Below are positions 13,327 through 53,312 of a stretch of 64,000 nt of DNA, piece after piece. The first letter of the stretch is position 1, and every line of letters starts with the position of its first letter. This DNA comes from Acytostelium subglobosum LB1 (Eukaryota; Evosea; Eumycetozoa; Acytosteliales; Acytosteliaceae). The DNA lies in the NCBI RefSeq assembly GCF_000787575.1, contig NW_012236512.1:260511-324510 (forward strand). The letters run 5' to 3'. Made by a program: the position numbers and the translations under genes. Under the pieces are notes generated by a model, which saw only the letters and a list, made by a program, of their open reading frames with translations, was not told the DNA's origin and did not search any database.

Positions 13327-15344
13327 ATGATAAACACAACTTCAACAACTACTTCTACAACAACTTCAACAACTACAACAACATCATCAATTACAACTAC
13401 AACATCGACAACATTACCAATCAACTCGATTGAAGACAAAGCCATTCTCACAGAGGAGAAGAAGAAGACAACACAACAATCACAATCAAGTGATGTGAAG
13501 CCGCCACATGTACAACAACAGGTACATGTACCTACTGTAAAGATTGAGATAGATGACCAAGATGATGGTCGTCAACATATCCATAGCGTCGACTTGGAGT
13601 ACAAGTCGTTGATTGAGCCGGTAAAGGTAGATAATGATGATCATTATGGCAATTATCAACCACAACCTGTGCCACTTGAGAAACAAGAAGAGCAAGCACG
13701 CCATCCCCACTCCCACTTCCACTGCCACTGCCACTGCAACCAGTCGATATCAAGCAAGATGAAGAAGCCCTTATGTGCTTACATAAAGGTTGCTCACATA
13801 TCATTGAATCAGGCCAACGTGATGAGTTGCGATCACACTGCAAGTTGAAACATTCACCACAAGATTGCAACACGACATATGCCAGCTGTCCAAACGAACG
13901 GAGCCAAAGACTTGTAGTTTATGAGCCATCTCCAAACGACTTGGAGTCGATCGAGTTGATGCTGGCCGATGGATGGTCCAATTGTCTGGACTCGGCATGC
14001 AACAGATGGTTCCGTTCGAATCTCGACATGTCTGGCCACATGCAGCTGGACCATGGTGTGGAGACAGCAGTGGTGTCCAGCCACTTGCAGCTGGAGCATG
14101 GTGTGGAGACAGCGGCAGTAACAGCACTCTTGGTCGATCAGCCCCAACTACTCGTAACTGGTGGCGATGTCGTCCCACCACTACCTCGCGTCAATCTCAA
14201 CAACTTCAGCTGCCAACACGAGTTCTGCGACAGCTCATACATGGTCTACAGCCAGTTGCGCAATCACTGCAAAGAGGAACATGCTTGCACATGGACATAC
14301 GCTGCATGTCCAAACCATCACGTGTTCCCAAGGATTGGATTCAAGGCAGATCCAAAGGACACCGAGTCGATCCGCATGATGCTTGCCAACGGACTGATCA
14401 AGTGTCCGCACGCGTCCTGCACCAGCTTCTTCCCCACACACGGCGCCAAGCAGAGTCACTTGACACAGGCGATGCATCAGTGTGCTGAGCCATGGAGATG
14501 CAGGGCATGTCAACAACTAGAGGGCAGTGTTGAGGAGGATATCAAGCACAGGATCCGGTGTATGCATTCGTCATGCGCCAAAGTGTACTCGAACACATAC
14601 AACGCGTATGCTCATTGCGCCTCGGTACATCGATGTGCGTGCACCTATGCCACTTGTCCAAACCTGCGTCACTACCAAAAGAAGAAGTTCTCGGTCTTGC
14701 CTGATGACACAAAGTCGATCACAATGATGCTTGCCAATGGCTTGATCAAATGCACACATACAGACTGCCACATCTACTTCATACGCGCCAAGAGCCAGAT
14801 GAACCATGTGCGTAAGATTACACATCAATGTATCGATCCAAGTCACTGCAGGGCCTGTCAGAAGCGACGCTCATCATTAGGGTCAATTGACAGCCACGAC
14901 CATGGCGTCTTGGCATTGGAGGAGCATGAACATAGCAGCAACAGACTGAAGAAGAGGAACAAGGTAACAAGCAGCAATGTAGACGTACACGTAGACGTAG
15001 ACGATGTGGATCAACATGATCCTGCTGGCAACGTACATCTATTATACCTCGTCAACCTTCGAGCAAAAAGAACGATTCAACAGGTTGCCTGGAGGAGTGT
15101 GGCGAAGACCAAAGGTGATAATGGTGAGGGCGAGAATGTTGAGATTGAAGATAAGGTTACAGAGCTTGGAGCGCTGGCAACAATCTTCAACATCAAATGT
15201 CCCCATATCAGCTGCGAGAGTAGTGGTACACTGGATGAGATGCTGGTCCATCTTGGAGAGGATCACAAGTGTCCAACTCTGTCTCTACTTCCATGTGATG
15301 GTTGCAAACTGGACCAAGAGGGGTCAAATTGGCTACTCATTTAG
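13327..15344 (+). CDS. Cys/His-rich zinc-finger-like protein 1 of the cluster
   Basis: First of five related genes. The N-terminus is Thr/Ser-rich, then acidic. The body has three ~100-residue modules of the form CxHxxC ... HC(x4)HxC ... CPN ... SI(x)MMLA(x)G(x4)C(x)HxxC ... HQC ... CxxC, beginning near 13773, 14209 and 14557, and a conserved tail (KCPHISCE ... CDGCKL ... NWLLI). Probably zinc-binding; nuclear or RNA/DNA-related role is only a guess. The Thr-rich frame and the Cys/His frame differ. An intron at 13621-13754 (GTAAAG ... ATCAAG) would join them in phase 0 as SLIEP|QDEEALMCLHKGC; a small indel in the CCACTG microsatellite at ~13710-13735 is the alternative. A 48-nt tandem duplication lies at ~14038-14130 in module 1. 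Confidence 0.75.
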
Positions 15345-15668
15345 TTCCATAACCATTAAAATCCGAGAGTTTGCCATCCGATCATGGGATGGATGAGGGG
15401 CATTTTGTCGTCAATCATTCAATCAATCAATCAAACAATCAATCATTTGTTCTGTCCTTGTGGGTTTGATCATCGCCCCCGAAGGCCCCATGTCGTTCAC
15501 CTCAAGGTCACTTCATTTCATTTCATCCAAATTCAAACAAATAACGATCAAACAAATACAAATACATATTATTGTAGCTATAATAACAACAACTACCAAT
15601 AACAACTTAGAGCAACATCACAACATCTACAGCATCAACAACAGAGTGAGATAGAGAGGGTCGCATGC
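15345..15668. other. Spacer between Cys/His genes 1 and 2
   Basis: Starts with the 3' flank of gene 1, then CAATCAATCAATCAAACAATC repeats, a short GC-rich patch near 15470-15500 and an Asn/Thr-coding-like AAC/ACA-rich stretch up to the start of gene 2. The frame at 15460-15654 is open but carries no recognisable domain and I do not call it. Confidence 0.5.
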
Positions 15669-15930
15669 ATGTCAAAGAAAGGTCAGAAGGTTGGATATTA
15701 CTGTCTGCACAAGAGATGTCCAAATGGAGGGACATACAAGTACAGCACATTCACCAGTCTTATGGATCACTGTCATGCCCTGCACTCTTGCACACATACA
15801 TACGCGACATGTCCAAACGATCGTAAACATCGAAGTTGAAGCAAGATGTGTGCAGACACTTGACCAAGCCATCGTGCAACATCAACTCTATCGATGCCGT
15901 GTCATCAGGGTCGGGAAGAAAGTGCAACTT
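15669..15930 (+). pseudogene. Scrambled first module of Cys/His gene 2, containing an inverted segment
   Basis: ATG at 15669 opens a frame with module 1 of the family (YYCLHKRCPNGGTYKYSTF ... TYATCPNDRKHRS) that stops at 15837. The next ~90 bases make sense only on the opposite strand: the minus strand of ~15835-15925 reads PDPDDTASIELMLHDGLVKC followed by LHTSCFNF, nearly identical to the second half of module 1 in gene 4 (19252-19335). The inverted piece is flanked by AAGTTG (15833-15838) and CAACTT (15925-15930). After it the frame resumes in the middle of module 2 (IFSDLHVHCRSEHNC), so roughly 60 residues are also missing. This is a real rearrangement or an assembly error. Confidence 0.75.
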
Positions 15931-17315
15931 ACAGAATATTCAGCGACTTACATGTCCACTGCCGATCAGAACATAATTGCGCATGGACGTATGCCACGTG
16001 CCCAAACGATCGCCTTTATCGCAAGAGAGCTCATATAGCACAGCCGGACGACACTGCTTCCATCGAGATGATGCTGGCCAATGGACTCATCAAGTGTTGG
16101 CACACCTCTTGCATGTACTTCATGTCGACGGAGGATACACGCTATTCACACTTGTCAAACGTGGATCATCAATGCACCGACCATGAAACCTGCTATGGCT
16201 GTCTCATTCGAGCAAACAGGAGGATGGGACCAGGTCATTCAACATCTAGGGACGACACCGATTGCGAGATGGAGGAACCTGACAACGACGGAGAGAATAA
16301 TGATAATGATGAGGATGACGAAGATGACAATGATGGTTCAAACAATATGAGAGTTAAACCAAGGCTTCAATGTCTACATGACAATTGCACGGTGAGGCAT
16401 TACCGAGTTCTCCATTTGCGTACTCACTGCACGACGAGCCATGGATGCACACATACGTATGCCAGTTGTCCGAATGAACGGAAGCGCAGGAACTCGTTTT
16501 TTGAGACACCGCCAGAGGACGTGGACTCGATCGCAATGATGAAGGCCGATGGAATGGCCAAGTGTTGGCACACCTCTTGCAACAAATGGTTCAGATCGAT
16601 GGTAACGGTCAAGGAGCACATGAGAATGAAGGAGCACCAATGCAAGGACAGCGAGACTTGTGCTGGATGCAATCAAACGACAGACGATATCACGCTGCCC
16701 GAGATTAGGTTCAACAAGGTAGCTCTCAAGTGTCTCCACAAAGACTGCACCAGGACAAAGATGAGCGGCAGCCTTAAGCACCTTCAGCTGCATTGCAAGG
16801 GAGTGCATCGATGCACGTTAACGTTTGCCAGCTGTCCAAACTCAAACACATACCGACGAAACAAGTTCAGGGCCGATCCAAACGATGCTGCATCAATCAA
16901 GATGATATTGGCTAAAGGATTGACCAAGTGTCCACACAAGTCTTGTGGTAACTTCTTCCACACATTGTCGAGCAAGGTGAGGCACGCAGCAAAGAAGCAT
17001 CAGTGTGCACAAGATTGCAAGGCCTGCCTTCAATCTATGGCCATCAACAGTAATGATGACGATGGACTTATTACAACTGATAGACCGCTGGGATTCACTG
17101 TTGAGCAGTCTGGCAATGAGGCATTGTTTGACATGATCAAGTGTCCACATGTCAGTTGTGAGCATCATGGGTCCATGGACGACATCAACATTCATCTTGG
17201 ACAAGACCACAACTGTCAATCATCATCACAGTTGCAACAACAATGTATTGGTTGCCAGTTGTCTCGTCACAATGACAATGATGAACATCATCAACGTGAT
17301 TGGTTGCTCGTGTGA
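15894..17315 (+). CDS. Cys/His-rich zinc-finger-like protein 2, intact part
   Basis: Open frame carrying the remainder of module 2 (HCRSEHNCAWTYATCPN ... SCMYFM), an acidic Asp/Asn/Glu linker (~16260-16340), module 3 (LQCLHDNCTVRHYRV ...), module 4 (LKCLHKDCTRTKMSG ...) and the family tail (IKCPHVSCEHHGSMDDI ... GCQLSRH ... DWLLV). Module order and linker match gene 4, so these two are closest paralogues. The apparent ATG at 15894 lies inside the inverted segment described for 15669-15930 and is unlikely to be a natural start; the true gene probably began at 15669. If the rearrangement is real, only modules 3-4 and the tail could be made intact. Cellular role unknown. Confidence 0.75.
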   Translation: MPCHQGREESATYRIFSDLHVHCRSEHNCAWTYATCPNDRLYRKRAHIAQPDDTASIEMMLANGLIKCWHTSCMYFMSTEDTRYSHLSNVDHQCTDHETCYGCLIRANRRMGPGHSTSRDDTDCEMEEPDNDGENNDNDEDDEDDNDGSNNMRVKPRLQCLHDNCTVRHYRVLHLRTHCTTSHGCTHTYASCPNERKRRNSFFETPPEDVDSIAMMKADGMAKCWHTSCNKWFRSMVTVKEHMRMKEHQCKDSETCAGCNQTTDDITLPEIRFNKVALKCLHKDCTRTKMSGSLKHLQLHCKGVHRCTLTFASCPNSNTYRRNKFRADPNDAASIKMILAKGLTKCPHKSCGNFFHTLSSKVRHAAKKHQCAQDCKACLQSMAINSNDDDGLITTDRPLGFTVEQSGNEALFDMIKCPHVSCEHHGSMDDINIHLGQDHNCQSSSQLQQQCIGCQLSRHNDNDEHHQRDWLLV

Positions 17316-17470
17316 GTGATCAGTCAAGAATAAAATCAATCATTTTGAACATTCATTCATTTATTCATTTGTTCAATCAAACAAGCAAATACATATTATA
17401 ACAAAATGCAACCTCAACAACATCAACTACATCAACAATCACTACAAACAACAAAGCAGAGCAAACTACA

Positions 17471-18058
17471 ATGATGAAGCCGAGACTTGCCTGTCTTCAT
17501 TTGGGCTGCACAAGGACCTTCATAGATTATGGCACAATGAGCAAGCATTGCTCCACCGATCATGGCTGCACTCGGACTTATGCATCGTGTCCAAACTTCA
17601 GAAGCTATCGGACAAGGTTGTTCATTGTCGATGCCGAAGACAAAGACTCAATCGAGATGATGCTGGCCGATGGACTCATCAAGTGTTTGCACACCACTTG
17701 CTTCAACTTCTTCACCTCGTCGGTCTCCATGTGCCTACACTTGTGGAGGAAAGGTGGAGATCATCAATGTGCAGACCGCAACAGCTGTCCAGGTTGTCTG
17801 CGCAGTGACTTGTTGATGGCAAGGTACACACATCCCAATGATCTTCCATCCATCAAGCCGTTTGTCTGTTTACACGATGGTTGCTCCAAAGAGTTCGATG
17901 TGTTTGGTACTCTGCAACATCATTGCAAGGTAGTGCATCAATGTCAATCATTCGAACAGGGACCCACTTTCATCAACTTCATCAGGCCCAATCAAGTTGG
18001 AGTCTGGAATGAGAGCATGTTCAATGTGATCAAATGTCCAACATCAACAACATTGTGA
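17471..18058 (+). CDS. Cys/His-rich zinc-finger-like protein 3, shortened copy
   Basis: About 195 residues (MMKPRLACLHLGC ... MFNVIKCPTSTTL). One full module and the start of a second are nearly identical to the gene at 48-50 kb. Two internal deletions are visible by comparison: after HQC the second module jumps straight to the pre-tail region (FIRPNQVGVWNE), and after FNVIKCP about 30 codons are lost. The second deletion shifts the frame; the lost family ending can still be read in another frame at ~18036-18108 (QQHCDGCKLSRH ... DWLLM). Even the 5' leader shares GCAGAGCAAAC with the inverted paralogue. Likely a decaying duplicate. A near-perfect inverted repeat TTCACCC...GGGTGAA lies just downstream at ~18120-18142. 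Confidence 0.7.
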   Translation: MMKPRLACLHLGCTRTFIDYGTMSKHCSTDHGCTRTYASCPNFRSYRTRLFIVDAEDKDSIEMMLADGLIKCLHTTCFNFFTSSVSMCLHLWRKGGDHQCADRNSCPGCLRSDLLMARYTHPNDLPSIKPFVCLHDGCSKEFDVFGTLQHHCKVVHQCQSFEQGPTFINFIRPNQVGVWNESMFNVIKCPTSTTL

Positions 18059-18404
18059 TGGTTGCAAGTTGTCTCGCCATGATGATAATGATTGGTTGCT
18101 CATGTGAGTGATGATAGTTATTCACCCTTTTAAAGGGGGTGAAGGTAGTATGACTTCTGATTTAAACAATACAGTGTTGTAAATCTAAATCCAACGATCA
18201 CAATATATATTATTAATTGTCGAATAATTTATATATAATATTTTTGTGGTGAAATAAATTTATAGGCTAATTTACAAATTGGATGATCAATTATTAATAA
18301 TTAAATCCTAAATCTTGGATTCAATCAATTATATATAGGAAAAGGCTAAATTGAATTATTATTATTATTATTATTACAATATATATAAATATATTATTAC
18401 TACA

Positions 18405-18797
18405 ATGAAATTAACTAATTTTATTATTAATTATTATATTTTTGGATTATTACTATTTATCTCCATGAATTTAAATAATGGAGAGGAAACTAATTTTGAC
18501 TTTTCTCCTTCTAACCTTATTATTAGTAAATCTAAATATTCACTACCTAAATACTATGGTAGTGACGATTTTATTCACCAAGTAATTAACCAAGCTTCAA
18601 GTGATAATAATCCAATGAGAGTTGATATGGAAGACTCACTTAGTAGTTCTGATAGCTACCCTTATGTGAGAGATTCTCCAGCTTATTCATACATTCAAGG
18701 TGGTCAACCTCCAATTCACCAAGTTCAATCAAAGAAGGGTACCTCTATAGGAGGTAGGGGAGGACTCCCAGATAATATTTACCATTTAATCAGATAA
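18405..18797 (+). CDS. Small secreted orphan protein, AT-rich
   Basis: About 130 residues. An ATG exists 54 nt upstream (18351), but that would prepend a Tyr/Ile-rich low-complexity stretch; the start at 18405 (ACAATGAAA) gives a proper signal peptide (MKLTNFIINYY followed by IFGLLLFISM). The mature part is Ser/Asp/Tyr-rich, lacks cysteine, and ends with a Gly-rich segment and DNIYHLIR. I recognise no family. Its codons are far more AT-rich (ATT, TTA, AAT, AGT) than those of the flanking Cys/His genes, and it sits between members 3 and 4 of that cluster on the same strand. It could be a young or transferred gene; expression is unproven. Confidence 0.6.
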   Translation: MKLTNFIINYYIFGLLLFISMNLNNGEETNFDFSPSNLIISKSKYSLPKYYGSDDFIHQVINQASSDNNPMRVDMEDSLSSSDSYPYVRDSPAYSYIQGGQPPIHQVQSKKGTSIGGRGGLPDNIYHLIR

Positions 18798-19051
18798 TTT
18801 TTGTCGTTGTTTTTTGAAATCAATTTTAATAAAATCCTATTATTATTTATATCATGAATAATACCCCCTCATTTGGGACCATCCCTTTACTAACAAACAG
18901 ATTTCGAGTGATGGTACGGATTGATCGAGCTTTCATGTCCCATAAATAATCAAAGGTGGACCCTTTCATTTCACTTTGAGGTCGAGTCCTCAGCCTTAAC
19001 ATGGACCACCACTCAATCAACCAATCAAAAAAAATACACTTACACATATAT

Positions 19052-20924
19052 ATGTCATTGACCAGATATAAAACAATAGAGGTACAACGAAAGGAGGAGG
19101 GATTGTATTGTTTGCACAAACGTTGCCCAAATAGATCACATAGCTATAGCACATTTGACAAACTACAACAACACTGCCGAGTGCTACATGGATGCGAGGG
19201 CACCTATGCAGGCTGTCCAAACGATCGAAGATACCGCAGTACACTCTTTTGTCCGGATCCTGATGACACAGCATCGATCGAGTTGATGTTGCGCGATGGT
19301 CTCGTCAAGTGTCTGCACACATCTTGCTTCAACTTCTACGGGTCAAAGGAGGGCTTGACTCAACACTTGCAGTTCAAAGATGGAGACCATCAATGTGCCG
19401 ACCGTCTGACCTGTCCTGGCTGTCTTCGAAGTGACTCATTGATGACAAAGGCGACCACTATATCTGATGGCCGTCGACCTCAGACCGTCTTGCTTTATTG
19501 TCAACATGGTACATGCAGGATGGAGTTCAAATCGTTCAACGAAATACATATGCACTGCAGAGCAGTGCATCGATGCACATGGACCTACGCAACCTGTCCA
19601 AACGAGCGTAGCTACCGCAAGAGAGCATTCAAAGCTGATGCCGCTGACACTGCATCGATCGAGATGATGTTGGCCGATGGCTTTATCAAGTGTCCGCATA
19701 CATCCTGCCTCCACTTCCTTGAAACGGAAGAGTCACTGTTGGCTCACTTCCGCAAAGTAAAGCACGAATGTAGCGACCGAACGACATGCCTAGGCTGCCA
19801 GCCACGGTCCAAAATTCGTTCAGAAGGGCTACTCTCATCTCTCAAGCGACGCCGGACAGTGCTCGACGAGGACTCGGATGCCGAAACACCATCTACAACA
19901 GACAGTGGACAGGCCAAGCCACACCCCAGGTATAACACCATTACCAGTCAAGATGGAGACAACCACAGAATGCCAAAGCTCCGCTGTCTACATGATGATT
20001 GTACCATCGCACGNTTATCAAGTGGGTAGTATCCGCTTACACTGTAAAGAGGCCCATGGATGCACACATAGCTATTCATGTTGCCCAAATGAGAGAGAGC
20101 GAAGAACAACATTCTTTGACACACCACCCGACGACGTGGAATCAATCAGAATGATGATGGCCGATGGAATGATCAAGTGTCGTCACACATCATGCAACAA
20201 ATGGTTCAGATATAGACATACTGTAAATGAGCACATGAGGATGAAGGAGCATCATTGTGACGACAAGCAGAGCTGCGATGGATGTACTCGACATAACTTT
20301 CGTCACAAGTTGTCGGTTAAGCTGAACAAGAAAGTATTCAAGTGTCAACATATTGCCTGCTCCAACACAAATGAGTTCTCAAGCTTCTCCGCTCTTCACA
20401 TTCATTGCCATGATTTTCATCGATGCACTTTGACATTTGCCAGTTGTCCAAACTACCAGATGTATCAACGACACAAGTTCAAAGCCGATATAAACGATAC
20501 CGCGTCCATTGAGATGCTGCTGGCAAGAGGACTGACAAAGTGTCCACACACCTCCTGCGGTCACTTCTTCCGCTCACCGGAAGGCAAGACATCCCACTTA
20601 TCTACTCCACATCAACAGTGTGCTGACCAAGAAGATTGCAAGACATGTCTTGATAACAGCGTCAACATTAACAATTGTATCGATAATGATGATGATGGAC
20701 ATTCAACTCAAAGACCTTTCGGATACATAGTTCAAGAATCAGACCAAGGTGGAGAGTTCTACAACATCATCACATGTCCGCATGTCAGTTGCGATCATCA
20801 TGGATCAATGAACGACATCATCATCCATCTTGGACAAGACCACAACTGTCCATCATCATCACAGTCACAACAATGTGATGGTTGTCGAATGTCGAGTCAG
20901 GGTACAGATTGGCTACTCATTTGA
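19052..20924 (+). CDS. Cys/His-rich zinc-finger-like protein 4, fullest copy (frame interrupted by N)
   Basis: Start MSLTRYKTIEVQ at 19052; an in-frame ATG at 19001 is possible but adds leader-like sequence. Contents in order: module 1 (LYCLHKRCPNRSHSY ...), module 2 (LLYCQHGTCRMEFKS ...), a basic-acidic linker (LKRRRTVLDEDSDAE), module 3 (LRCLHDDCTIARYQV ...), module 4 (FKCQHIACSNTNEFS ...) and the tail (ITCPHVSCDHHGSMNDI ... CDGCRMSS ... DWLLI). The reading frame changes exactly at the N at 20014. Dropping the N yields TIARYQVGSIRLHC, in perfect register with gene 2, so I treat the N as one surplus base. Result ~623 residues. Conserved Cys and His spacing suggests metal binding; no known named family comes to mind. 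Confidence 0.8.
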
Positions 20925-42180: not shown

Positions 42181-45100
42181 TTAGTCGCGGTCATTGTCGG
42201 TGTCGTTGTCGGTGTCAGTGTCGTATCCACCGTTTGGCTTGCATTGTTTGCCCTTGCATGGTGTGTGGACACAGGCGCCATTGGATGGCGAGCAGTAGTC
42301 GTAGGTGTTGGCGTTGTTGTCATCACAGTTGACTGGCTTGTGAGTACATTTGCCGCTGGACGAGCACAGGTCGATCGTGCACTTGTTGCCATCGTCACAG
42401 CTGGTGTGGCGGCAGCCCTTGTCCGAGCTACATGAGTCACATGTGGTGGGGTTACCGTCGTCACAGTTGACGTTCTCCATGACACACGTGCCGTTCTTGC
42501 ATACGGAGAACTTGCATTTGTCGTCACACTCGTGGTCACAGTTGATTGGAGTGTGGATGCATCCCTTGCTGAGGCTGCATGTGTCCTTGGTGCAACTGTC
42601 ACCGTCGTCACACTTGTTGGCGACGTATGAACAGGTTCCGTTGGTGCACTTGCCGAGCTGGCAGGCGTTGCCTCCAGTGCACAGTGTGGCAGTGTCGAGA
42701 CACTTGCCGGTCGATGGCTGACAGGTCTGGCAACCAGAGCACTTCTTGGCAACGTGGGTGATGAGACCAGTGATACGGTCACAGGCATCGGCGGTACATG
42801 CGTTGTTGTCGTCGATCACAACGTCAGTGTGCTTGATCACACCGGTGGTGGAGTTACATGAGTCGATGGTGCATGCGTTGTTGTCATTGATGACAACACC
42901 GATGTGAGTGATCAGTCCGGTGACACGGTCACAAGAGTCGATTGTGCAGGCGTTGTTGTCGTTGATCACAACGTCAGTGTGGGTAATCACTCCAGTGGTC
43001 TTGTTACAGAAGTCGATGGTACAGGCGTTGTTGTCATTGATGTTCACATCGATGTGGGTGATGGCACCGGTGGCGGGGTTGCAAGCGTCGATGGTACAGG
43101 CGTTGCCGTCGTTGATGGCGACGTTGGTGTGGACACATCCGTTGGTAAGAGTGCAGGTGTCGATTGTGCATCCGTTTCCATCGTCACAGGTGTTTGGAGT
43201 GTAGATACAGGTGGCGTTGATGCAGGATGGGAATGAGCAGACGTTTCCATCAGTGCACTGCGAGACGGTGTCGACGCAGAGGCCGGTGGCCGACTGGCAG
43301 GTCTGGCAACCCGAGCAGGCCTTGGGCTGATGGGTGATGGCGCCAGTAGCTGGGTCACAGACATCGATGGTGCATGCTTGGCTGTCGTCGATCACAACGT
43401 TGGTGTGGGTGATGATTCCGGTGGCAACGTCACAGGTGTCAATGGTGCAGGCGTTGTTGTCATTGATGGCTGGGTTGTCGGTGTGGGTGATCACACCAGA
43501 GGTGGTGTTGCAAGCGTCGATGGTGCATGCGTTGGAGTCGTCGATGGAGACGTCAGTATGGGAGATGATACCAGTGGTGATGTCACAGGTGTCGATGGTG
43601 CAGGCGTTAGAGTCATCAATCAGAACATCAGTGTGGGTAATAACTCCGGTGGCAATATCACACGAGTCGATGGTGCAGGCGTTCGAGTCATCAATGGAGA
43701 CGGCAGTGTGAGAGATGAGACCAGTGGCGATGTCACACGAGTCGATGGTGCATGCGTTGGAGTCGTCGATGGAGACATCAGTGTGGGAGATGAGACCAGT
43801 GGTAGTGTTGCAAGTGTCGATGGTGCAGGCGTTCGAGTCATCGATTGAGACATCAGTGTGGGTGATGATACCAGTTGCGATGTCACATGAGTCGATGGTG
43901 CATGCGTCGGAGTCGTCGATCGAGACGTCAGTGTGAGTGATGATACCAGTGGTTGTGTTACAGAAATCAATGGTACAGGCGTTGGAGTCGTCGATGGAGA
44001 CATCTGTATGAGTGATGGTACCGGTGGCAATGTCACAAGTGTCGATGGTGCAGGCGTTCGAGTCGTCGATGGAGACGTCAGTGTGGGAGATGATACCAGT
44101 TGCGATGTCACAAGTGTCGATGGTACAGGCATTCGAGTCGTCAATGACAACATCAGTGTGTGAGATGATACCGGTGGCGATGTCACAGGTGTCGATGGTG
44201 CATGCGTTGGAATCGTCAATCACGACGTCGGTGTGCGAGATGATACCGGTGGCAATGTCACAGGTGTCAATGGTGCAGGCATTGGAGTCGTCGATGGAGA
44301 CATCAGTGTGAGTGATCTCACCAGTGGTAGTGTTACAGAAGTCAATGGTGCATGCGTTAGAGTCGTCGATTGAAACATCAGTGTGAGAAATAATTCCGGT
44401 GGCAATGTCACAAGTGTCGATCGTGCAGGCATTTGAGTCATCAATCACAACGTCAGTGTGAGAGATAATACCAGTGGCGATGTCACAGGTGTCGATGGTG
44501 CAGGCATTCGAGTCGTCAATGACAACATCAGTGTGCGAGATGAGGCCAGAGGTGGTGTTGCAAGTGTCAATGGTGCAAGCGTTCAAGTCGTCGATAGCGA
44601 CATCGGTGTGAGTAATCACTCCGGTAGCAACATCACAAGTGTCGATGGTACAGGCGTTCGAGTCATCAATCACAACATCAGTGTGCGAGATGATACCGGT
44701 AGCAATGTCACAAGTGTCGATGGTGCAAGCGTTGGAGTCGTCGATGGAGACATCAGTGTGAGTGATCACACCGGTGGCAACATCACAAGTATCGATGGTG
44801 CAGGCATTGGAGTCATCAACAGAGACATCGGTATGGGTAATCTTTCCAGTGAGTGGGTCACAGGCATCAATGGTGCATGCATTGCCATCATCAATGGCAA
44901 CGTCAGTGTAGTCACATTGGCCGGTGGCGGTGTTGCAGGTGCCGATCTGACATCTGTTGGTGTTGGCGCTTGGGTCACAACATCCACACTCGGTGCTGTT
45001 GAGTGCTCTAACCTGACAACCAATCTGGGAGTCACAGGTGTAGGCAGTGCATGGAGTTGGGTTGGATGGCTTGCACACCTTGGACTTGGTGACACAACCG

Positions 45101-46838
45101 AGAGCAGCATCACAAGAGTAGAGGAGACACTGGTCGTTGCCGGAGCAGTCGACTGGAGTGTTGGTGCAGGTCTGGTTGTTGGCGTTACAGACAGAGTTCA
45201 TGCATGGAGTGGACTGGCACAGTGGCTGGTACTTGCATCCACCTTGGTTGGAGTCACACATTGAAGTCTGACAGCTCTTGGATGGACATCCCTTTGGGCT
45301 GGAGAGATCTCTAACACAGGTTCCGTTCATACACATCCATGGGAAACATGGGTCGGCAGCAGACTCGGTGGCACAGGTGATTGGAGTGTGGAGACACTTG
45401 TTGATGGTGATTGGGTATGGTCCCTTGCAAGAGTCAACGGTACATGAGTTGTTATCGTCACAGAGCTGACCAGCACCAACTGGACAAATGCATGGGCTTG
45501 GATCACAGGTGGAGGCTGGGACACGGACGTAGAAGTAACGGATACCCTCGGTCATCTTCAATCCCTTGCTGTCAGTGAGACCGATGTTGATGACGTAGAC
45601 ACCGACGTTGGCCAAGGTTGGGACCCAGGTCAAAGTGATGTTGCCAGAGCTACCGGTGGCAGTCTGTGGGGTGTTGACCTGGGAAGACACAGTCATTCCG
45701 CTTGGGACCTCACCGATGGAGATGTTGACACTGGTGGCAGCGTTCAAGGTGGCACCGCTGATCACAACACTGAAGGTTGTTCCTTCCTCAACAATAAAGG
45801 TCTCGCCTTGGGCTGGGGTTGGGTCCTTGAGGAATGGTGGGGTGGCAGTGGGTGGTGGGGCGTTGGACACACGGATGATGAAGTCGACGTGGATGTAGGT
45901 GTTGAGTGGGGCGGGCTTTCCGATTCTGATCTGAGTGGACCAGAGACCAAGGGCAGTTGGGGTGTAGGTGACGATACCAGAGGCGTTGATGCTAAGTTGT
46001 GGTGGCTGGACAAAGTTCAACAAAGTGGACAGGGCGTAGGTGAAAGTGGAGGTTTGGAGGTCAATCACTGGGATGGCAAAGTAGTTTGGTCTTCCCATGT
46101 ACACATCAATGGTTGGCATCATACTGGACACTGGGGAGCTCTGGAGTGCAGATGGCCAGTTTGGATCCAACATTGGGACAACAGTCTCAATGTGCCAGTT
46201 GGCTTAAGATGGAGAAGAAGAGGAAGTGATGGAAAAAGGAATAAGATGTTAGTGTACATGTAGGATTGATTAAATGAAAGAATAAGTATGAATGAATACA
46301 TACCATTGGCATTGTTGTTCAAGTTGGTCAAACGTGCACTGCTCTCATAGTAGGCGATAAGGTTCTTACGGCCGTAAGTGAGGGTGTTGGCGGTGAAGAT
46401 GAACTCAGCATGGAGGGTGTCCTCAACCTTGTCGATGTTGTTGACCGTGAAGTTGGTGTTTATCTGTTGGAGCGTGCCACCCCAGTTGAGGGTGACAGCA
46501 TTGTTGGAGAAGAAGTTACCGACCTTGAGCTCAACATTGTTGTTCAAAGCGGTGTAGTAGCTGTGACGGAAGGAACACTTGAGGGAGAACTGGATGGTGA
46601 ACACGTTGGGGCGGGTGTCATTCAGTGACTTCCAGGTAAGCTGGCCATATCTAAAGTGAGAGGCTAATATAAGAAATGGTTGTATGGTTAGTGTGATTGA
46701 TCATTTATTAGTGTGTGTGAGTGGGTCCAAACGAAAGTGATGGAAGTGATGATTGATTGATTAGGGTGACATACCTTCAGCAACATTTAATGCCAATACG
46801 AGGCAAGCAATAAATAAGATGATCTTTTTGGCATCCAT
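42181..46838 (-). CDS. Extracellular Dicty-repeat (CTDC) protein B, prestalk/matrix type
   Basis: Paralogue of protein A, same order and strand, 528 bp upstream of it in transcription direction. Exons 46838-46775 (MDAKKIILFIACLVLALNVA, signal peptide), 46663-46304, 46202-42181; introns 111 and 101 nt with the same positions and phase 1 as in A, which proves duplication after intron gain. 1,481 residues with no frame break. Domains: HFRYGQLTWKSL beta domain, two He_PIG/cadherin-like domains (FAIPVIDLQTSTFTYALS), cysteine-rich region (CVCP-like), then 21 tandem 25-residue units, a cysteine spacer (CSGCQTCQSATGLC), five more units, a second spacer, divergent units and an Asp/Thr/Asn tail. Known relatives are secreted to sheath and stalk; that role here is inferred. 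Confidence 0.92.
42750..44890 (-). repeat. Two Dicty-repeat blocks in protein B (21 + 5 units)
   Basis: 21 units at ~43325-44890 and 5 at ~42750-43115, 75 bp each. Several units are nearly identical at the DNA level (DDSNACTIDTCDIATGIISH recurs seven times), which indicates recent unequal exchange or gene conversion. The second block uses NDNN in place of DDSN. Confidence 0.95.
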
Positions 46839-48042: not shown

Positions 48043-50138
48043 TCACACGAGTAACCAATCACGTTGATGTTCATCATGATCACCACTGTGACGAGACAAC
48101 TGGCAACCATCACAATGCTGTTGTTGTTGTTGTGACACTGGACATGTGTGTGGCAGTCGAAGATGTTGGTTGATCATACTTGGCTGGACAGACTCCTCAC
48201 ATCCAATGTGTGGACATTTGATCACGTTGAACATTCTCTCATTCCACACTCCAACTTGATTGGGCTTGACAAAGCCATTTGTGTTGTTTGTTGTCTTCGT
48301 ATTCTTCCTGAGAGCCATACCGACCGGTACCAACTTCCCACTGATGATCTCGCGTTGCCTTTTACCTCCTTTGGACTTTGACTGGGACTGGGATTGATTG
48401 TCAACATTCACATTGTCGATGTGAAAGTTGCGCTCGACACATGCCTCGCACTCATGTGGATCGGAACACTCATGTCTAAGGACCATGTGACCCCGTTTGG
48501 AGATACCATCTTTGAAGAAGTAGATGCATTCTGGATGATCACACCTGAGGAATCCATCGGCCAGGAGCATCTCGATTGATTTAGTGTCGTCGTGTGATGC
48601 ATAGTACCTCTGAGCGCGGTACTCTCGAAAGTTTGGACATGTTCCATATGAGTTTGGGCACTTGTGATTCTTCTTTCAATGATAATACATGCCACTCGAG
48701 GAGATGAAGCTCTTGGTGCAGTCAGCGTCATGCAGACATTTGAACTTGCCCTCCTGCTTGTTGTCATTGGGTGGAGCTCCTGTCCAGCGTCTCGGGTGAT
48801 GATCGATACAACCTTGACAACTCGCAGGATCAGGACATTGATGCTCCTTTGCAAGGTGATGATTCTTGGCTCTGTTAGTGGCCATGAAGTGACCACATGA
48901 TGTGTGTGGACATTGGAACAATCCTCTTGCTGTCAACATTGAGATTGATTCAGTGTCATCAGGATCGGCAAAGAAACTCGTCTTTTGATGTGTCTGATAG
49001 TTTGGACATGCTGCGTATGTCTTGGTGCATCGGTGGTGGAATCGGCAGTGTTTGCGCAACGATGAATAGTTCACAAGAGAGGTTGGACATCCATCGTGAT
49101 GACACTTGAACTTGGGCAAGGAGGCAGAATCATTTCTCATCGCACACAGTCGTCGGAGCATGCATCCTTGACAGCTCTGGTGGTCTGTACATTGGTGATC
49201 CTTCCTGTTGTGATGGAGCATTTGGTACCTCATAGCGAACGATTTATCGCAGTTGGAGTGCAGACACTTGATCTTGACATTGCTTGCATGGTTGGTTGGT
49301 GATGATGGAAATGTCAAGATGAGAGACACATCCTCATCATCCTCACCATCTTGTCCATTATCTTGATCCATATCAATATCCTCATCGTCCTCCTCTTCGT
49401 CCTCCTTATCATCCTCCTCATCGTCCTCCTCTTCGCCGTCCATCATGGATCGTTTGCGTTTCAGAGTTGATTCAAATATGGATGATAGATCGTGACCTGG
49501 GTGATAGATTCTAAAGTGCTTCTTGATTGACCTGGTATTCTTGAAGTAGGAGGTGCATGTTGAATGTAGACACTGGATGAGACCTCTGGCTGTCAGCATC
49601 TTGATCGACTCCAAGTCATCGGGCGCTGCGGTGAAGTGAGTTGTTCGGTAGCGTTGTTGATTGAGACAACTAGCGAATGTTCGACATTGATGCATTTTCT
49701 TGCAATGCTTTTGCAACAGTCCAAAGTCTTCGAACTCTTTGGAGCAACCATCGTGCAGACATACGAACGACTTGGTTGTACGGTCATTGGGAAGAGTGTA
49801 CCGTGTCATCAACAAGTCACTGCGCAGACAACCTGGACAGCTGTTGCGGTCTGCACATTGATGGTCTCCACCTTTCCTCAACAAGTGTTCGCTCAGGGAC
49901 TTCAACGTTGTGAAGAAGCAAGCGGTGTGCAAACACTTGATGAGTCCATCGGCCAGCATCATCTCGATTGAATCTTTGTCGTCGGCATCAGCAATGAACA
50001 TCTTTATGCGATAGCTTCTGAAGTTTGGACACGATGCATAGGTCTTTGTGCAACCATGATCATCGGGGCAATGAGTACTCAAGGTGCATAATCAAAGGCG
50101 GACCTTACGCAGCCCAAATGAAGACATTCAAGCCTCAT
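48043..50138 (-). pseudogene. Cys/His-rich zinc-finger-like protein 5, inverted distant copy with two lesions
   Basis: Longest member of the family by module count: module 1 (MRLECLHLGCVRSAFDY ..., start ATG 50138), then modules with FVCLHDGCSKEFEDFG, a long Glu/Asp linker (~49320-49440), IKCLHSNCDKSFAMRY, FKCHHDGCPTSLVNYS, FKCLHDADCTKSFIS, and the full tail (FNVIKCPHIGCEES ... CDGCQLSRH ... DWLLV). Compared with gene 3, one base is missing near 50088-50095, just after the first CxHxxC, so the frame from there on starts STHCPDDHGC. Further down an in-frame TGA at 48676-48678 replaces a conserved Cys of the HC motif (YYH-stop-KKNHKC); the frame continues unchanged to the end. Either a pseudogene or sequence errors; the high quality of the rest argues for recent inactivation at most. 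Confidence 0.75.
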
Positions 50139-51542: not shown

Positions 51543-53312
51543 ATGAAATTCTCACTCTTTATCTGTATTATACTCTCATTGGCACTGGCTGCCAACGCCT
51601 TCAACATCAACAGTGGCAATAACTTTGTCGGTTATTGGGGCCAGAATAGTGCTGCTCCAGGTATGTATATTAACAAAATTCCAGAGATCGATCAATCAGA
51701 GTGGGTGACACCTTGTTACCAGGCCAACACACTGATCATAAACATGCTGACACACTATATCCACTCCACTCCATACAAAAGGCGGCAGACCATATCAAAC
51801 TGAACTCGGCACTTACTGTACTGATAACACCTACGATGTACTCATTGTCTCCTTCTTGATTAACTTCTTCTCTGGCGAGAACATCATCGGCACCAACATC
51901 CCCGCCCCAACTCTTAACTTTGCCAACATGTGTGGCGGTACTTACCCAGGCTACAGCCAGCTGCTCCAGTGTCCAAACATCGGCTCTGGTGCCGCTACCT
52001 GCCAGAGCAAGGGCAAGATCGTCCTCCTCTCACTCGGAGGTGCCGTTGGCAACTACGGATTCACCAGCTCGGCCCAGGCCACCCAGTTCGCAAAGACCAT
52101 CTGGAACATGTTCCTCGGAGGCAGCGACTCAACCTACCCCCGTCCATTCGGTTCCGTCCAGCTCGATGGTATCGACCTTGATCTCGAGGGAGGACCCAAG
52201 GAATACTACGACGTCTTTGTCAACACTCTCAAGATCCAGTACTTTGCCGGCGCATCAAAGAGGTACTACATCCATGCCGCCCCACAGTGTGTCTACCCAG
52301 ACGCAATGGTCGGACCATGGACCGGATCTGCCCTGAGCACTGGTAAGCTTGACTTTATCAGCATTCAGTTCTACAACAACTGGTGTGGCCTTGCTTCAGG
52401 CTCGCAGTTCAACTACAACACCTGGTCGCAGTGGATTAGCGCCAACTCACCAGGCACCAAGATCATGGTCGGTGCTCCAGGTGACACCTACGCTGCTGGT
52501 TCAGGATACGTCACTGCCCCAACCCTGACCTCCCTGCTCGCCAACTACATCAACGATCCAAACTTTGGAGGTGCCATGGATTATGGGATGTTTCCGTTGC
52601 CAACGCCAACATTGTCTCTGGCTCAACCAACTTTGCTCAATATGTCTCCAACTACCTTAAGACTGCCAGACCAACAACTGCCTCCTCTACCACCACCCCC
52701 GCCACTACCTCGTCTACATCCACCACTAGACCATCAACTACTACCACTACTACCACCAGAACATCAACTACTACTACCACTACCACTGCCCCAGCAACTA
52801 CCTCCTCGACCACCTCAACAACTGTCAAGCCAACAACAACTACCACAACTACCGCCCCAGCCACAACCTCATCGACAACCTCCTCCACAACTGTCAAGCC
52901 AACTACCACAACTACCACAACCACACCAGCCACTACCTCGTCGACAACAGTCAAGCCAACTACTACCACAACTACCGGACCATCAACGACCACCTCGGCC
53001 ACCACTTCATCCTCGACCACCTCACCCAACACATTGGTCTTTACCCAATCAGTGACCTCTCAATGGGGCAGCAATCCACCAACCAGCCAGATATCCGGCC
53101 AGGTTAAGAACAATGGAGCCACCACTATCTCCAACCCCAAGTTCAGTTCGCCACAGAATGCCATCATCAACGGCATGTGGGGTCTATCCCAGGATGCCAA
53201 CGGATATTGGGTACTTCCATCATGGGCCAACACTTTGGCACCAGGTCAAGGAGTTGAGTTTGGTTATGCCATCAACTCTGCCACTCCAGCAACATTCAAC
53301 AGAGTCGCCTAA
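51543..53312 (+). CDS. Secreted class III (GH18) chitinase with Thr-rich linker and CBM49-like domain
   Basis: Hydrolyses chitin or chitin-like polymers outside the cell. Exon 1 51543-51660 (signal peptide MKFSLFICIILSLALAANA, then NNFVGYWGQNSA), intron 51661-51781, exon 2 from 51782 (join PG|GRPYQTELGTYC). Catalytic DxxDxDxE appears as LDGIDLDLEGG. The frame then slips at ~52580-52586: GGAMDY-GM where the family has GGAMDWDVSVAN; two surplus bases (TA) explain it. In the other frame everything downstream is good: VSVANANIVSGSTNFAQY, ~100 Thr/Ser/Pro residues, then a CBM49-like end (WGLSQDANGYWVLPSWANTL ... FNRVA). The Pro/Leu-rich peptide read without correction is an artefact of the Thr linker. 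Sequence error or recent inactivation. Confidence 0.88.

Follow-up and report, generated by a model that had tools for sequence, protein, structure and literature searches.

We analyzed a 64,000-nucleotide stretch of contig NW_012236512.1 of the dictyostelid Acytostelium subglobosum LB1 (RefSeq assembly GCF_000787575.1, positions 260,511 to 324,510 of the forward strand; 46% G+C), hereafter the window, and the family of Cys/His-rich modules that it encodes. The repeated module reported in a sequence-only reading of this DNA is present at 13776-20924 on the forward strand and at 48043-50126 on the reverse strand. That reading described four genes side by side and an inverted fifth; five module loci (W1 to W5) are indeed there, but several are broken and not intact genes. 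It also put the number of modules per copy at 1 to 6. The numbers do differ, but we counted three modules in W1, four in W2 (the first broken), one and a piece in W3, four in W4, and four plus a single finger in W5. The loci and their parts, in window coordinates, are as follows.

13327-15344 (+): W1, with a poly-Thr/acidic N-terminus, three modules and a tail finger, ending in NWLLI
13327-13848 (+): poly-Thr/acidic N-terminal frame of W1
13776-14045, 14211-14510 and 14559-14858 (+): modules of W1, the first with a degenerate second finger
15198-15272 (+): tail finger of W1, followed by the end NWLLI
15669-17315 (+): W2, broken, with four modules (the first disrupted) and a tail finger, ending in DWLLV
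15702-15831 (+): module 1 of W2, continuing into an inverted segment
15832-15922 (-): inverted 91-bp segment in W2 module 1, with 89% identity to the reverse strand of W4 at 19246-19336
15939-16202, 16371-16670 and 16731-17027 (+): further modules of W2; in the first of these the first Cys pair was not found
17142-17216 (+): tail finger of W2, followed by the end DWLLV
17402-18107 (+): W3, a broken copy of the W5 type, with module 1 at 17492-17800 and a piece of module 2 at 17867-17944
19001-20924 (+): W4, with four modules and a tail finger, ending in DWLLI
19109-19426, 19499-19798, 19985-20285 and 20343-20651 (+): modules of W4
20766-20921 (+): C-terminal tail of W4, comprising a lone finger of the second type and, after it, DWLLI
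20775-20849 (+): tail finger of W4, followed by the end DWLLI
48043-50126 (-): W5, broken, with modules starting at 50126, 49761, 49104 and 48738 and a tail finger, ending in DWLLV
49266-49162 (-): single second-type finger of W5
48216-48142 (-): tail finger of W5, followed by the end DWLLV

W1 carries a single frame change inside 13680-13776, a simple-repeat stretch, and in W4 the third module contains an N together with a frame change, at 20014. The damage to W5 consists of a frameshift near 50085, in the first module, and a TGA at 48676-48678, in the module that starts at 48738; this locus also carries KRKRS plus an acidic stretch. Compared with W5, W3 has lost about 1.4 kb after its module 2 piece and has a second deletion in the tail finger, and its remnant end, DWLLM, is out of frame. 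The tail finger is kept in W1, W2, W4 and W5 and not in W3. Two 40-bp direct repeats, 45 bp apart and 90% identical, lie at 14029-14113 (+), where the first W1 module has its degenerate second finger.

The module family extends well beyond the window. Whole-genome queries were limited to the window's own genome (30.7 megabases in 56 contigs), and the counts are lower bounds, only the best candidates having been scored. Three module queries gave at least 65, at least 62 and at least 68 matches and returned the same 18 loci each time, so that a family of five copies, as first described, has become one of at least 18 loci: five in the window and 13 outside (L035 to L047), spread over contigs C35, C36, C40, C47, C48, C54 and C56. 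One window module alone had at least 33 matches at an expect value (E) of 1e-19 or lower, the query counted, and a short additional match lies at C47:105043-105201 (E = 0.004). A query with the C-terminal tail found it at 17 of the 18 loci, with only its last part in L047 and with W3 as the exception. None of 25 pattern matches in IMG/VR and none of 16 in GTDB encodes a relative by tblastn, and no viral or prokaryotic source was thus seen with the patterns used. A literature search, with most subscription papers outside its coverage, found no description of the module family.

The module as a pair of C2H2-type fingers

The module, of about 100 residues, comprises two C2H2-type fingers with a conserved linker of 40 residues between them. 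The finger spacing is typically CX4C-X12-HX4H, and some fingers have longer spacings. When the nine complete window modules were aligned, 24 columns were invariant. A profile run over the 18 loci gave 87 hits, from which 47 near-complete, stop-free modules were kept; the 40 incomplete hits dropped before ligands were counted include module 1 of L046, which has lost its second Cys, and module 5 of W5, with a stop at a Cys position. In the first finger, C3, C8, H21, C22, H26, C28 and C35 were each present in 47/47 modules, and H5, the His of a CxHxxC motif, was present in 46, with Asn in the remaining one; a wider pattern search in all frames also found His in 46 of 47 first-type fingers. Among 36 complete second fingers, C67, C72, H85 and C98 were found in all 36, H90 and C92 in 35, and H69 and C101 in 34. 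The repeated Cys/His module proposed from the sequence alone is confirmed. Since each half of the module has eight conserved Cys/His, each consists of a CX4C-X12-HX4H finger plus four extra conserved Cys/His residues. The two fingers are related to one another (hhalign probability 95%, E = 3e-8, in a single comparison).

A profile of the 47 first fingers, searched against PDB chains, matched GLI (E = 6.1e-11), YY1 (7.2e-5), ZNF410 (5.6e-4) and Klf10 (0.0012), with TFIIIA, GLI1, FOXP3, WT1 and Zap1 following in that order. As a control, we took 28 gap-free first fingers and shuffled their non-ligand columns twice, with the eight ligands fixed in place. The native subset matched GLI at E = 7.5e-10; one shuffle gave a best E of 0.53 and the other no match. 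Because the matches vanish on column shuffling, the likeness of the first finger to C2H2 proteins exceeds ligand spacing. Similarity beyond the ligands was found in this way for finger 1, and the spacing and conserved ligands were found for the family. We conclude, on sequence grounds, that the module family belongs to the C2H2 superfamily.

The predicted structure is compatible with this assignment. AlphaFold2 was run on the W4 module at 19493-19798 (+), with 14 other window modules or pieces in the input, and modeled this representative with a mean pLDDT (predicted local distance difference test score) of 90.3 and a pTM (predicted template modeling score) of 0.75, the latter suggesting a fixed arrangement of the two fingers. 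Helices were predicted at 15-26 in finger 1, at 36-41 and 53-61 in the linker and at 79-88 in finger 2; the finger helices begin where helix position +1 of a C2H2 finger is expected, and short strands precede them. Foldseek against the PDB placed TFIIIA, WT1 and CTCF first, and the first 27 matches were C2H2 proteins by title, none of them significant; against viral models, nothing was significant. The last module with the tail was modeled less well (pLDDT 71.5, pTM 0.47), with low confidence in the linker and the WLLI end.

Several results weigh against the C2H2 assignment or limit it. Pfam gave nothing above cut-off for seven window reading frames and eight proteins from the 13 outside loci; the zf-C2H2 model (PF00096) matched one of the eight proteins below its curated cut-off (16.4 bits vs. 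25.2) and one of 15 window modules at E = 6.9. The best E for the 15 window modules was 0.0064 in Pfam (FOXP-CC, in two of the 15) and 0.044 in NCBIfam. The E-value for GLI is a sum over its fingers, single GLI fingers reaching 0.07 at best, and the second finger alone matched the PDB only weakly (YY1, E = 0.083). The fold comparison ranks C2H2 proteins first, with a best E of 0.22, and the whole-module arrangement is accordingly without a significant PDB match. Canonical TGEKP linkers are absent. The sequence-only reading had recognized no named zinc-finger class. That no Pfam model scores above cut-off agrees with it, but the family does not lie outside all named classes, since the profile of the first finger finds C2H2 proteins and the shuffle control was clean. 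In the same genome, the classical zf-C2H2 model has four matches, all on contig C51, and zf-TRAF has one, on C44. Since these two models give so few matches, the module family may be the largest C2H2-type set of its genome among those compared.

The four extra residues point to a candidate second metal site. The full eight-residue set also occurs in lone fingers, namely the tail, the third unit of the A-type genes defined below and the N-terminal fingers of L041 and L045; exceptions are the L035 tail, which lacks the His, and the L043 tail, which lacks one Cys. Because lone fingers carry the full set, the extra Cys/His need no neighboring finger. The N-terminal fingers of L041 and L045 are of the first type, with only 7 to 8 residues from second Cys to first His and all eight ligands intact. 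We collected 74 second-type fingers with a wide pattern that includes second fingers with 7 to 9 residues between the two His. Under a fixed rule, 12 of them lack the C-terminal Cys triple, and 6 of these 12 have also lost the CxHxxC His, compared with 3 of the 62 that have the triple (Fisher, 3.3e-4). On inspection by eye, the triple is kept at a wider spacing in three of the 12 (in L037, L043 and L046), giving 6/9 vs. 3/65; a narrower pattern gave 6/9 vs. 3/55 (p = 8e-5), or 7/11 vs. 3/55 (4e-5) when two fingers missed by the pattern were added. Loss of the His together with the triple speaks for a His-Cys3 site in addition to the Cys2His2 one. We infer that each finger may bind two metals, the second held by the CxHxxC His and by three Cys located in the helix or following it.

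Evolution and decay of the copies

At six of the 18 loci, an intronless frame runs uninterrupted from ATG to stop (L036, 678 residues; L040, 692; L041, 494; L043, 734; L044, 737; L045, 650). Seven are clearly broken (W2, W3, W5, L037, L038, L039 and L047, the last in a stretch that also contains 100 N). The remaining five (W1, W4, L035, L042 and L046) have a single frame change or ambiguous base, which could be sequence error; the frame change in L042 is near a run of six A. These loci show the family to be multi-copy and decaying, in line with the turnover that the sequence-only reading suggested. Selenocysteine at TGA codons was considered and rejected: the TGA falls at a Cys in W5 and, by eye, at a non-Cys position in L037, and both copies are otherwise damaged.

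In a tree of 56 modules, those of the two main types of gene, A and B, cluster by position in the gene and not by gene. Type A consists of modules 1 and 2, a KRKR/acidic stretch (in most members), a single finger, modules 4 and 5 and the tail (L035, L039, L040, L043, L044 and W5, with the truncated copies W3 and L038); type B has modules 1 to 4 and the tail (W2, W4 and L037). First modules of the two types cluster together, as do fourth modules. Only 16 of 53 inner branches were strongly supported in this tree, the bootstrap had not settled and some modules were unplaced; several modules of L036, L041, L045, L046, L047 and W1 were not resolved. Because modules group by position, A- and B-type copies arose by whole-gene duplication, and differences in module number reflect two old architectures plus deletion and decay. 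The variable module arrays of the sequence-only reading were not upheld in the A- and B-type genes, and the tree does not support multiplication of modules inside them.

Across 88 within-position pairs, broken copies included, the median ratio of nonsynonymous to synonymous substitution rates (dN/dS) was 0.41 (range 0.15-1.20). We also compared the proportions of nonsynonymous and synonymous differences (pN/pS) by a counting method, pooled by site class with bootstrap intervals. The ratio rose from 0.02 (ligands) through 0.47 (linker), 0.56 (remaining sites) and 0.75 (helix positions other than contacts) to 1.15 (0.93-1.54) for the classical contacts -1, 2, 3 and 6. In rank tests, contact positions had a higher pN than other non-ligand finger positions (p = 0.0001 in finger 1 and 0.004 in finger 2) and than the rest of the helix (p = 0.01). 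When the analysis was confined to the four A-type loci with an open module frame (L035, L040, L043 and L044), the same tests gave 0.005, 0.013 and 0.03, and ligand pN/pS was again 0.02. The candidate DNA-contact positions are thus the most variable ones, in line with the diversifying recognition modules suggested in the sequence-only reading. As only a counting method was used, we do not claim positive selection.

Other features were seen around the copies. Between W3 and W4, an A+T-rich open frame of about 130 residues (18405-18797, +) has, by eye, a hydrophobic signal-peptide-like start and no Pfam match. A 1340-residue frame at 42181-46203 (-) contains 30 Dicty_CTDC stretches (PF00526, E = 7e-190), a repeat that occurs in dictyostelid extracellular-matrix proteins, and at 51751-53055 (+) a glycosyl hydrolase family 18 (chitinase-type) domain (PF00704, E = 5.8e-16) is followed by a long proline-rich low-complexity tail. 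Outside the window, frames beside L043 (607-2265, -) and L044 (5019-6560, -) resemble, by eye, B-box-/FNIP-type dictyostelid proteins; the available text of one source gives 381 members for the B-box/FNIP family of A. subglobosum (PMC4334915).

Predicted function and relation to known families

Most of the C-terminal tail is one more finger of the kind found in the modules. Genes end in Trp-Leu-Leu-hydrophobic at 16 of the 18 loci (as Trp-Leu-Ile-Leu in L039, and out of frame in W3 and L037), this end being missing solely in the divergent L041 and L045. Contrary to the sequence-only reading, the motif IKCPHxSC is not invariant: W4 has ITCPHVSC, W5 has IKCPHIGC and W3 has lost it. Ten of the 18 loci encode a KR[KR]-like basic cluster with an acidic run after it, a weak eleventh in L047 being left out. 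The WRPW motif recruits Groucho, and the C-terminal Trp motif of the family recalls this recruitment, which we offer only as a suggestion by analogy. A shared partner for the constant tail is possible.

From these features, the most likely role predicted for the family is that of nuclear nucleic-acid-binding proteins with a shared C-terminal contact. Two C2H2-type fingers and a 40-residue linker with two short helices are predicted to fold as one unit, and each finger would hold a Cys2His2 zinc site and a second, His-Cys3 site. The proteins are most likely nuclear, and the exposed helix faces of their fingers would be what binds DNA (or RNA). The constant last finger and the Trp-Leu-Leu-hydrophobic C-terminus probably serve to contact one partner common to the family. 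Genes duplicate and die as wholes, and the residues predicted to read DNA change fastest, the metal ligands staying fixed. The C2H2 relationship, the conservation of ligands, the joint loss of second-site residues, the positional evolution of modules in types A and B and the decay of genes are observed here; two metals per finger, nuclear location, DNA binding and the partner are inferred. Taken as a whole, an expanded dictyostelid C2H2-type family with paired fingers, two-metal sites, nuclear nucleic-acid binding, a tail partner and birth-and-death evolution is the account that we favor, with moderate confidence.

Parts of this account can be read otherwise. The extra Cys/His could be structural or redox residues, or could link fingers to one another, with no second metal site within the finger. 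Six fingers speak for this by breaking the co-occurrence (three without the His keep the Cys triple and three without the triple keep the His), and five of the nine triple-less fingers occupy one orthologous position, so that the nine are not independent; the other four have all lost the His. The joint loss of His and triple, and the eight-residue set of lone fingers, which with the exceptions named above needs no neighbor, argue for a second site, and we consider the non-metal alternative possible but rather unlikely. Another proposal would make the modules protein-protein or ubiquitin-pathway adaptor fingers, TRAF- or SIAH-like, whose fast exposed residues track changing protein partners. 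Adaptor zinc fingers have extra Cys, long linkers and no TGEKP, and the TRAF-type zinc finger (PF02176) has a Cys/His pattern with long spacers and extra Cys. The family resembles them in its Cys/His pattern, in extra Cys after HxxxxH, in its long linkers and in the lack of TGEKP, and some viral TRAF-type proteins were among the non-significant fold matches. The PF02176 profile does not match the family, however, and neither Pfam nor the PDB profile search gave a TRAF-type match, no separate search being aimed at SIAH. The sole zf-TRAF match of the genome, on C44, lies outside the family, and a TRAF-type origin is not supported. The PDB matches of the first finger were C2H2-containing transcription factors, save for cytochrome bc1 chains (E of 0.16 or more) and an MC5 chain (E = 0.34). 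Adaptor function thus appears quite unlikely to us.

The rate pattern has its own alternative, an ageing family that consists mostly of pseudogenes and whose fast positions reflect relaxed constraint after redundancy. In its favor are the seven clearly broken loci among the 18, the five others with one frame change or ambiguous base, and a pN/pS of about 1 at contact positions. Because the intervals there include 1, relaxed constraint on exposed residues could produce a similar pattern. Positions 83 and 87 of finger 2, which are not classical base contacts, are equally fast; in the four open-frame loci, the pooled contact interval was 0.72-1.89, and in finger 1 of these loci contact and other helix positions hardly differed (1.04 vs. 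1.03). Against wholesale decay stand the six uninterrupted frames of 494-737 residues, the median dN/dS of 0.41 even with broken copies included, and the near-complete fixation of ligands in the four open-frame A-type loci. We judge this alternative unlikely.

Among known systems, tandem CWCH2 (tCWCH2) proteins such as GLI, ZIC and Zap1 offer a close parallel. Like the family, in which the unit is a predicted one, they have two C2H2 fingers forming a unit, a conserved residue between the two Cys and a long, non-TGEKP linker, according to the available text of PMC2837044; the maximum linker length given there is 37 residues, compared with 40 in the family by alignment numbering, and two tCWCH2 genes are reported for Dictyostelium discoideum. 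C2H2 factors of the same superfamily and organism group are described in the available part of a survey of Dictyostelia, which counts 103 C2H2_ZnF genes over five species, A. subglobosum not included, and says that the 23-residue C2H2 domain often goes unrecognized in some orthologues (PMC6873476). GLI is the best PDB profile match of the first finger, and Zap1 is also among the matches. The residue between the Cys differs, being C-x-W in GLI and C-x-H in the family: the defining Trp was absent there from all 47 first-type and 74 second-type fingers, where His occupies the position in 46 of the 47 first fingers and in most of the second ones. Unlike tandem CWCH2 fingers, those of the family each have four extra conserved Cys/His. 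By analogy, the family would work most like tandem-finger C2H2 units.

Its mode of evolution recalls a different group. In the KRAB-ZNF and ZAD-ZNF families of animals, C2H2 genes duplicate and decay while ligands stay fixed and base contacts change fastest, and the expansions run to tens to hundreds of loci. The family is alike in gene duplication, decay, fixed ligands and fast contact positions; it differs in its 100-residue finger pairs without TGEKP, in the lack of within-gene module duplication in types A and B and in its size of about 18 loci, and no KRAB or ZAD domain was matched by Pfam in the seven window frames or in eight of the 13 outside loci. A bolder version, which we hold to be doubtful, would make this a KRAB/ZAD-like arms-race family outside animals, built on an undescribed two-metal C2H2 finger with Cys2His2 and His-Cys3 sites in a single unit of about 40 residues, in which DNA-reading residues diversify among duplicated genes, perhaps following mobile DNA, and WLL[IV] recruits a co-repressor.

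Because the Pfam copy used gives nothing above its cut-offs, such genes are likely to remain unannotated. Should the eight-ligand finger bind two metals, it would elaborate in a new way a DNA-binding fold that is very common in eukaryotes. Animals provide the best-known C2H2 expansions in which DNA-contact residues change fast; if our reading is true, the dictyostelid family would show that this evolutionary regime also arose in Amoebozoa, there with a different finger.

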